A DNA stretch of 64,000 bases, taken from the NCBI GenBank assembly GCA_034190875.2, contig CM067354.1, forward strand, positions 7,268,115-7,332,114. Direction: 5' to 3'. The DNA comes from Urechis unicinctus. Taxonomy: Eukaryota > Annelida > Polychaeta > Xenopneusta > Urechidae. The notes beneath the pieces were generated by a model, which saw only the letters and a program-made list of their open reading frames with translations, had not been told where the DNA came from and made no database searches. The translations under genes were made by a program, and so were the position numbers. Shown here in pieces: positions 40,101-64,000 of the stretch. Each line of letters starts with the position of its first letter. The stretch's first letter is position 1.

Positions 40101-43100
40101 CTAACCCGTCGCAGCTACCTACATGGGCCTCCGACCTGTCCGGTCAGTCGCTCCAAGCAGGGTTGGACGAGAGAATCCAAGACATGGCAGCGCACTATGC
40201 CGACAGGTAATCAATAGTCATACCTGTTCAATAGTACAGGTAATAAATGTTCAGTTGGGACGGCCAAGTTGTATTTACTCCTGCATGTTATCGACGTTAA
40301 TCTATGTTTAAAGTTACCTGGTTGATTGAGACATTTTATGGCGAGGTTTTATGACGTGATGACGTCATTGTAAGCGTACTTTAAGTATGTTGCCCTAGAG
40401 GTACTATGCTGGTGACGAATGATGGTATTGGGCTGGTTGGTATGATATTGACCTTCGTAGATGCAACATAACACAATTGTGTTGGTATGCCGTTAAATCA
40501 TGAACTTATCTTACCTTTGACGGTGGATATCGCTGTGATGATGACGATGCTGATGATGACGATGCTGATGATGACGATGTTGATGGTGGCGATGCTGATG
40601 ATGACGATGTTGAGGATGACGATGTTGATGATGACGATGCTGATGACGACGATGCTGATGACGACGATGCTGATGACGACAATGCTGATGATACCGTCAT
40701 GGGACTTATATAACATTGTGACACCTCACCTCCCTCGTCTAATGTTGCCTTATCCCGTGACTAGTATTTGATGATGTTGTGATATTTCGTTACTTGTCTA
40801 TGATTGTATTGTGATATTTCGTTAGTAGTCGTAATAGCATTGTGATATCTCGCCACTGCATTGTGATATCCCGTGACAATATTGTGCCACAGCATTGAGC
40901 ATCTGGTCGTCAATGATGAGAGTCTCCACTACACTGGCCTGGAAGAGAAGACCGGTGTCCACGACATCACGGCACACCTGTTTCAGAGTGCTCAGGCCGC
41001 CATGCCTGACGTGAAGCTGTTTCTGTCTGAAGATGACGTGCTCATTAAAGGGCTATACACACAGGTGAAGGATAATGACGGTGGTGTTCATGGTCAAGGT
41101 GAAAATGAAGACGATAATGAATGATAATGTCTGTTATTTTTGTTGACGAAGATGTTTATGGTGCTGATGATAATGCTATTTATTGGTTACGTTTATGAGA
41201 ATGATAACTATAAGCGGATGGTGTTGACGATAAGGATAATGATTTAAATGATAACGCATTGATTATTATGATGAAAGCTAATCTAATATTGATAATGATA
41301 ATGATAAAGAAGATGATGATGGTGATTATGATGATGATGATGATGATTATGATGATTATGATGATGATTACCTTTAGGCAGTAGTAAACCAAGCAAAAGC
41401 CTTAATGGCCCAGGGCATAGCCGTTGGCGGGATAGCCGCCCAATTCAGCCTCGGTGCCGATGACTCTGTCAACCCTACCATTCTCACAGTATGTTATCTA
41501 CAATCTGATTCTGCTCCCCATCTTAACGCAATCGTGACCTCATATAGCCGTCACTACAGATAACCGTCTTATACACCACGAGTTATATGATATGTTCGCA
41601 GAAGCAACTCGATACTCTGGGTGCTCTTGGATTACCAGTGTGGGTGACACAGTTGACGGTGGACCGTGCCGACGTGACAGAACGGGCTGAGGCTTACACG
41701 GACCTACTGCGCCTCTTCTACAGCCATCCCGCCGTGCACGGAGTCATGCTCTATGGCTTCTACGATAGGGTCAAGTGTGGCCAGAACGCCGCTCTCGTCG
41801 AGACAGAAGGATTCATTGTAAGACCTTGTTACTTTCCGTATGAATCATTGGGTTTCCAAGTAACTCATTACTCGTTGAAATGCAAGAACCATTCGTGGGT
41901 TTAACGGCGGGTGTATTCCCAATTCTCATAGATAGGCTCAATTGCGCTCTGTTATAAGCTGTATTTCCGACTGTGATAAGCTGTAATGCTCTCTCTGATA
42001 AGCTGTAATATCCTCTGTGATAAGCTGTTATGCTCTCCCTGATAAGCCGCAATATCCTCTATGATTAGTTCCGTTGATCTCGGTGGTAAGTTGTATTTTC
42101 CTCGGTGGTAAGCTGTATTGTCCTCGATGCTATGCTCTATTGTCCTCGATGCTAAGCTGTATTGTCCTTGGTGCTAAGCTGTATTGTCCTCGGTGCTAAG
42201 CTGTATTGTCCTTGGTGCTAAGCTGTATTGTCCTCGGTGCTAAGCTGTATTGTTCTCGGTGCAAAGCTGTATTGTCCTCGGTGCTAAGCTGTATTGTTCT
42301 CGGTGCTAAGCTGTATTGTCCTCGGTGCTAAGCTGTATTGTCCTCGATGCTAAGCTCTATTGTCCTCGATGCTAAGCTGTATTGTCCTTGGTGCTAAGCT
42401 GTATTGTCCTCGATGCTAAGCTGTATTGTCCTTGGTGCTAAGCTGTATTGTCCTCGGTGCTAAGCTGTATTGTCCTCGGTGCTAAGCTGTATTGTTCTCG
42501 GTGCTAAGCTGTATTGTTCTCGGTGCTAAGCTGTATTGTTCTCGGTGATATGCTGTATTGTCTTCGGAGATAAGCTGTATTATCCTCGGTGATAAGCTGT
42601 ATTGTCCTCGGTGATAAGTTGTATTATCCTCGGTGATAAGTTTATTTACATTTCGTTCTATGAAAAATTACATTTATATCCATCATTATTCTGCATGTAC
42701 AGGAGAACGCCGCCGGGAAGGCAGTCCGTGACCTCTGGGGGTCATGGGCTACCAACATGGCGATCAAACCAGATACACACGCCTTAAAGAGACACAGCAC
42801 CAGAGGTTATCATGGTGATTACATCGTTAAAATAATGTACGACGGAAAGATGGTTAAGGAGCAGAGCTTTACGCTGGACGGAAATGACGTCACGATGGAA
42901 GTTCATGTTGTTCCGCAGTAAGTCGTCGAGACTAACTGACAGCCTTCATGCCCTTGTTTCTGATAATGTATTCCCTAGTCTAGCTGAGAACTAACGAGAA
43001 AATGTATTTTTTGCCTATATTAGCTTATATTGCATGATTCCGTTCACCTGGAGCGCCAAGTGGTGTTTCCTTTCTGTTGTCTCATAGAACAGTTTCTTCA

Positions 43101-64000: not shown

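Follow-up and report, generated by a model that had tools for sequence, protein, structure and literature searches.

A seven-module GH10 gene model in Urechis unicinctus with six cleft-degenerate modules and one apparently intact module at its C-terminal end

The window analysed here, a stretch of 64,000 nucleotides of contig C13 (positions 7268115-7332114) in the 1.19 Gb genome of the annelid Urechis unicinctus, holds the greater part of a large forward-strand gene for a protein built from GH10 domains. Family searches of this genome gave 43 wnt matches (best E 6.5e-63), as expected of an animal, and no match to the tyrosinase/haemocyanin, COX1 or egg lysin families; for two of these three the control genomes gave no match either, so that the negatives carry little weight. 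The gene was rebuilt from the DNA, with exon candidates taken from self-comparison and by eye and then joined into a spliced model. Its in-window part consists of 50 exons from 34762 to 63774, with 6,925 coding nucleotides and no stop codon, which agrees with the intact frame over about 6.9 kb reported in a preliminary description of the same DNA. Downstream modules were detected with exon profiles at the loci L009 and L010, and the gene extends 15.5 kb beyond the window, to a stop codon at extended coordinate 79548 in the L010 stretch. The complete gene contains 84 exons and, with the stop codon counted, 11,631 coding bases, and it encodes 3,876 residues in a single reading frame. These are arranged in seven modules, each composed of a CBM_4_9-type domain and a GH10 barrel, the CBM_4_9 domain being matched by Pfam in modules 1 to 6 and not in module 7 (Table 1). 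An exon-profile search of the remainder of L010 and of the stretches L011 and L012 found no further exons beyond module 7.

Table 1. Features of the gene and of its surroundings, in window positions; extended coordinates lie past the end of the window.
Feature	Position	Strand	Details
Long repeat unit copies	3-921, 7333-8237, 16175-17875, 21705-22529, plus neighbouring stretches to ~28500		
30-bp minisatellites, upstream region	12513-13107 and 29128-30807		
Module 1	34762..42917	+	12 exons; start Met; putative signal peptide, identified by eye; Pfam GH10 72.5, CBM_4_9 39.4 bits
Module 1, first six exons	34762-34943, 35941-36089, 36520-36615, 36956-37112, 37994-38039, 38216-38383	+	
Module 1, last six exons	38724-38779, 40069-40206, 40893-41064, 41378-41488, 41602-41817, 42703-42917	+	
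Intron minisatellites, examples	38843-39226, 42079-42640, 44771-45356		
Module 1 exon i, acid-base region	40893..41064	+	E340 retained; preceding Asn replaced by Asp
Module 1 exon k, nucleophile region	41602..41817	+	VTQL: Q442
Module 2	43454..51218	+	12 exons; Pfam GH10 82.9, CBM_4_9 42.2 bits
Module 2 exon i, acid-base region	48547..48718	+	N890 in acid-base place
Module 2 exon k, nucleophile region	49869..50084	+	VTEL: E992 retained
Module 3	51434..56321	+	12 exons; Pfam GH10 27.5, CBM_4_9 27.4 bits
Module 3 exon i, acid-base region	54484..54655	+	D1441 in acid-base place
Module 3 exon k, nucleophile region	55234..55446	+	ITGL: G1543 in nucleophile place
Module 4	56540..62170	+	12 exons; Pfam GH10 85.7, CBM_4_9 50.0 bits
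Module 4 exon i, acid-base region	60151..60322	+	G1989 in acid-base place
Module 4 exon k, nucleophile region	61302..61517	+	ITQF: Q2089 in nucleophile place
Module 5, exons one and two	62518..63774 (62518-62646, 63626-63774)	+	rest of module 5 past the window
Remainder of module 5, then modules 6 and 7	extended 63990-79548	+	L009, L010

All internal junctions of the 84-exon model are of the GT-AG type, each exon type keeps one phase across the seven modules, and the introns between modules measure 137-536 bp. Phase and spacing, as read from genomic DNA alone, indicate that the seven modules form one gene. If there were instead two or more genes, with modules 1 to 6 as a non-catalytic array and module 7 as a separate enzyme gene, the branching of module 7 apart from modules 1 to 6 and its missing CBM_4_9 match would be accommodated, but the module 6 exon that precedes it ends in a phase-2 donor which pairs with a phase-2 acceptor of module 7 only 427 bp downstream, and the frame upstream of module 7 exon a is open for 19 codons without a Met. 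A separate first exon could supply a start, and the arrangement in several genes is considered improbable. An in-frame Met ahead of exon a is absent from modules 5 to 7 as a group, while in-frame ATGs lie 5 codons ahead of it in module 2, 23 and 31 codons ahead in module 3, and 14 codons ahead in module 4, none of them followed by a leader that is convincing by eye. When the last exon of a module is left unspliced, an in-frame stop appears at the donor in five of the six internal modules (42917, 51218, 56321, 62170 and extended 73334), so intron retention could give shorter proteins.

The surroundings of the gene are rich in repeats. In the upstream 30 kb a long repeat unit occurs at least four times, its copies having diverged to about 70-87% identity, and many introns of the gene hold minisatellites (window 35213-57736) whose units are about 22-55 bp long. 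A 31-bp minisatellite at 48917-49281 begins within the end of module 2 exon j (48823-48933), an overlap that suggests an origin of the repeat from this exon end and its donor site.

The preliminary description had paired the residues in the acid-base and nucleophile positions of the four modules as Glu340/Gln442, Asn890/Glu992, Asp1441/Gly1543 and Gly1989/Gln2089, and the same residues with the same numbers are found in the rebuilt gene model. The equal exon lengths on which that reading relied are also recovered, exon i being 172 nt long in all seven modules, which makes the alignment of the acid-base exon gap-free, and exon k 216 nt long in six of them and 213 nt in module 3. Misalignment of the catalytic columns is ruled out by the constant length of exon i and by the fact that modules 4 and 7 align to the same columns of the solved chains 7d88 and 7d89. 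For these two modules, the only ones compared with solved structures, the best-scoring chain is the bacterial beta-xylanase 7d88, whose catalytic glutamates (both Ala in 7d89) fall on G1989 and Q2089 of module 4, so that the assignment of the catalytic columns is borne out against a known xylanase, for module 7 as well.

Beyond the window, module 5 reads DINKE and VTEL, with both glutamates present, a Lys in place of the Asn ahead of the acid-base residue, and both cleft histidines gone. Module 6 has Gly in the acid-base and Glu in the nucleophile position. Module 7 carries both glutamates within the motifs RGHCMFW, YDVNNEQIHG (DVNNE), AQSHF, ITELD and MWGFWD. The glutamate pair is complete in two of the seven domains (modules 5 and 7), and one or both glutamates are lost in the other five (modules 1, 2, 3, 4 and 6); a single one is left in modules 1, 2 and 6 and none in modules 3 and 4, and the nucleophile is missing, among modules 1 to 6, from modules 1, 3 and 4 only. 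The earlier statement that no GH10 domain keeps both glutamates is correct for the four domains with catalytic exons inside the window and fails for modules 5 and 7; it was an effect of the window edge, as the gene continues into L009 and L010.

The catalytic glutamates are only part of the active site, and 16 conserved GH10 cleft residues are named in a report on the Thermotoga xylanase TmxB (PMC6163442). Twelve of these residues, from subsites -2 to +1, were scored and a thirteenth, W308, was added later by offset, while Q111, S197 and E199 were not usefully scorable, being misplaced or variable among bacteria. The number retained out of 12 is 3 in module 1, 4 in module 2, 0 in module 3, 2 in module 4, 5 in module 5, 1 in module 6 and 11 in module 7; four intact paralogues from the same genome retain 10-12. 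All seven modules and the paralogues on C4 and C16 lack W308, which the two paralogues on C6 possess; module 7 thus stands at 11 of 13. Four residues (N68, K71, H104 and W300 in TmxB numbering) are lost in every one of modules 1 to 6, N68 and K71 being residues of the -2 subsite. For the four modules in the window, the replacement of the N and K of ENxLKW and of the His of GHxLxW had already been recognised, and it is found again here at N68 (W, E, G, Y), K71 (D, D, D, L) and H104 (S, R, T, S).

A reference for the rest of the barrel is given by the 74 columns that are invariant in module 7 and the four paralogues, taken together as five intact domains of the same genome; 9 of these columns belong to the cleft and 65 do not. 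Modules 1 to 6 retain the invariant residue at 10 of 54 cleft positions versus 246 of 390 others, and in a column permutation 17 of 200,000 random nine-column draws were as poorly retained as the cleft. Residue loss in modules 1 to 6 is targeted to the cleft, with the rest of the barrel spared, and the Pfam GH10 model (PF00331) matches all seven modules above its cut-off (27.5-147.8 bits versus 22.1). Module 7 entered the Pfam GH10 search, the solved-structure comparison and the substitution estimates below as an earlier model that differs in the CBM part only, and exon f of the two C6 paralogues was completed by hand using six-frame hits. The bacterial GH10 set comprises 75 loci, for each of which the longest forward frame was taken, and one (L086) was omitted as short. 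Four of the remaining 74 rows (L072, L091, L097 and L099) have no motif, probably because of a wrong frame, and are included in the bacterial cleft counts; the bacterial rows are intact by selection, since the retrieval pattern contained the intact acid-base motif.

With such a cleft, modules 1 to 6 are very unlikely, judging by their residues, to cleave xylan as GH10 enzymes do, whereas module 7 looks like a working enzyme, and its sequence would be compatible with a role as an animal GHF10 digestive enzyme. Catalysis by some or all of modules 1 to 6, through other residues or on another substrate, could draw on the two glutamates of module 5 and on the single one of modules 1, 2 and 6; against this, the glutamates of module 5 sit in a broken cleft, modules 3 and 4 have neither glutamate, and the loss of N68, K71, H104 and W300 extends to all six, so residual activity of this kind is judged quite improbable. 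What had been suggested for the modules seen in the window, a selected role other than hydrolysis, is upheld by the loss of most cleft residues together with an intact frame, intact splice sites and a recognisable GH10 domain. The picture of the whole protein as a pseudo-xylanase array is not, given the two glutamates of module 7 and its retention of 11 of the 12 scored cleft residues.

Other GH10 genes were located on C3, C4, C6, C9, C13, C14 and C16, with at least 58 GH10 matches among those listed, this gene included. Both glutamates are kept at all 17 other loci, a subset of the matches, at which both catalytic exons were read, which rules out a genome-wide loss of GH10 catalysis. At a further locus on C6 (L006) the stretch readable in frame covers the nucleophile, which is kept, and at three more, L029 and the overlapping L001 and L028, only the nucleophile exon was seen and carries Glu. 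The C4 gene consists of a single module with a leader of its own, and its stop follows exon l. On C16 (44828000-44858000; L015-L017), five near-identical single-module GH10 copies with both glutamates form a tandem array at intervals of about 5.9 kb; four of them show a leader, exon l is followed by a stop in four, and the frame is apparently broken in at least two (in exon l for copy 1 and in exon k for copy 4). Additional GH10 copies lie farther along C16. A GH10 sequence on the minus strand of C6 (46636000-46645000; L014) has both glutamates and reads CRAFKW versus ENxxKW elsewhere, which shows variation at the -2 subsite even in paralogues that are probably live.

Loss of catalysis may also reflect decay, if nothing maintains the N-terminal modules any longer. 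The substitutions do vary between modules and the glutamate losses look independent, as decay would predict, but the losses cluster in the cleft, the 84 exons show no stop or frame break, their splice sites are intact, and modules 1 to 6 run for over three thousand codons without a stop. Across exons e to l, the 15 pairs among modules 1 to 6 give pN 0.45-0.53 and pS 0.72-0.84, the latter at or near saturation, and comparisons of modules 1 to 6 with module 7 give pN 0.46-0.53 and pS 0.74-0.81. The intact frames and splice sites, together with a pN well under a near-saturated pS, argue against decay, which is rejected on these grounds and regarded as highly improbable. The same values point to prolonged purifying selection acting on the protein, undated, as the comparison between modules covers their whole divergence and not the time since the losses.

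A maximum-likelihood tree was built from 31 barrels, the 20 bacterial rows among them being the first 20 of 51 motif-bearing rows left after thinning at 70% identity. Modules 1 to 6 form a single group in it (98/97), within which modules 2 and 5 (99/95), 3 and 6 (96/95) and 1 and 4 (92/68) are paired, and an earlier 39-row tree that included one faulty row (L072) gives the same pairs. The whole-module tree again joins modules 2 and 5 (94/94) and 3 and 6 (90/92), with an unsupported placement of modules 1 and 4, and module 7 branches separately from modules 1 to 6 in both the barrel and the whole-module trees; modules 1 to 6 were not recovered as a clade in a CBM-only tree. Pairs in the order 1-2-3/4-5-6 are expected from the duplication of a three-module block, and modules 1 to 6 have apparently arisen in this way. 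When losses are mapped on the barrel tree as irreversible, N68, K71, H104 and W300 require one loss each, the acid-base residue three and the nucleophile two; plain parsimony needs more changes than this count at every site. The substrate site was probably lost first and the glutamates afterwards, which would explain why the glutamate pairs differ between modules. The history may thus have started from one GH10 gene whose module was duplicated; residues of the -1 and -2 subsites would have been lost early, in the ancestor of modules 1 to 6, and duplication of the three-module block would have been followed by piecemeal loss of the glutamates.

The second domain of each module offers a different view of what the degenerate copies may do. 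CBM_4_9 is above its cut-off in all six degenerate modules (26.4-50.0 bits versus 25.9) and in none of the five intact domains (module 7 and the four paralogues), with 19.9 bits for the C16 and 16.5 bits for the C4 sequence and with partial sequences for the two on C6. A genome-wide search for CBM_4_9 exon by exon gave no match, probably since single exons are short. As a profile, the six CBM domains best match the xylanase Y domain structures 1dyo, 1h6x and 1h6y (E 3e-5), which we take to be CBM22 of C. thermocellum, with R25, W53, Y103 and E138 presumably as its ligand-contact residues. In a reading by hand, Trp occupies the W53 column in three of the six modules and Glu the E138 column in two, so that the CBM22 ligand residues are only partly kept.

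These features can be brought together in a single secreted protein, some 3,876 residues long, in which six non-catalytic, glycan-binding or scaffold modules carry one catalytic C-terminal GH10 domain, a reading to which we give an even chance. The six N-terminal modules would have been retained as folded non-catalytic parts, either as glycan binders or as a spaced scaffold, and would keep the C-terminal GH10 at or close to its substrate, in the manner of the binding modules of ordinary xylanases. The -1 and -2 subsites of modules 1 to 6 are largely gone, and binding through the old cleft is therefore doubtful. A purely structural role, in which the six dead modules serve without any sugar binding as spacers or in a secreted matrix, mucus, egg or shell layer, would be in keeping with sugar-binding subsites that vanished together with catalysis and with the partial retention of the CBM22 ligand residues; it sits less well with a CBM_4_9 domain that is recognised in the degenerate modules and not in the intact domains tested. 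Neither 'xylanase' nor 'cellulase' occurs in the main text of two shell proteome papers, one for an abalone and the other for a limpet, which says little, and overall the structural role appears rather unlikely. A more specific version of the secreted, enzyme-bearing protein is put forward tentatively, as possible and short of probable: a digestive xylanase would have become a giant secreted scaffold, the six dead copies derived from the three-module block forming a multivalent binding array with one live xylanase at its end. The digestive role of the gene is itself something that we infer.

Naturally inactive GH10 proteins appear, in the literature drawn on here, to have been hardly described so far, and no paper on an animal GH10 pseudoenzyme was found among the leading titles of searches of the open-licence literature. 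The gene is real and unusual, and has one bacterial protein as its precedent; in this animal the arrangement is repeated six times and joined to an enzyme that is apparently live. One animal gene in which dead GH10 domains of graded degeneracy stand beside a live one would make the order of loss testable (subsites first, glutamates later), and, if the dead modules bind, they would be an animal equivalent of the multivalent binding arrays found in microbial enzymes that degrade plants.

The bacterial precedent is BACOVA_03431 of Bacteroides ovatus, described as an inactive GH10 surface glycan-binding protein that has lost the nucleophile, has a disrupted -2 subsite and binds xylan, and the authors of the 2015 paper state that they knew of no other naturally inactive GH10 (PMC4491172). 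The likeness lies in the GH10 fold, the disrupted -2 subsite and, for three of the six modules, the lost nucleophile, BACOVA_03431 being reported as inactive on xylans (PMC4491172), and it makes binding by modules 1 to 6 plausible by analogy. By the same features, N68 and K71 of the -2 subsite are lost in all six modules, whereas the nucleophile is lost in modules 1, 3 and 4 only. Moreover, BACOVA_03431 is described as a single bacterial surface lipoprotein with demonstrated xylan binding, while the present protein has six such modules and an intact one, comes from an animal and is known from sequence. RsgI6 of Clostridium thermocellum, in which a nearly inactive GH10 is reported to serve as a sensor (PMC4711584), is similar in the reuse of a GH10 module for binding with very low activity and differs in being, by its description, a single-domain bacterial anti-sigma factor. 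In the case of module 7, the match to the bacterial beta-xylanase 7d88/9rhv spans the barrel and the C-terminal domain; 7d88 itself is one barrel in a chain of 428 residues with both glutamates. Among animals, the apple snails Ampullaria crossean and Pomacea canaliculata are reported to have an expanded family of GHF10 enzymes of ordinary size, molluscan GHF9 and GHF10 enzymes being given as 45-63 kDa and the A. crossean GH10 domain as active on cellulosic substrates (PMC4123733, PMC6408826, PMC13336756). Compared by description, these are animal GH10 proteins too, but of 45-63 kDa and not of about 3,876 residues of mostly dead domains. Leaf beetle GH45 proteins, some of which are described as having a substituted catalytic residue and no activity (PMC6509783), are likewise, by description, an animal enzyme family with catalytically substituted members, although from a different glycoside hydrolase family.
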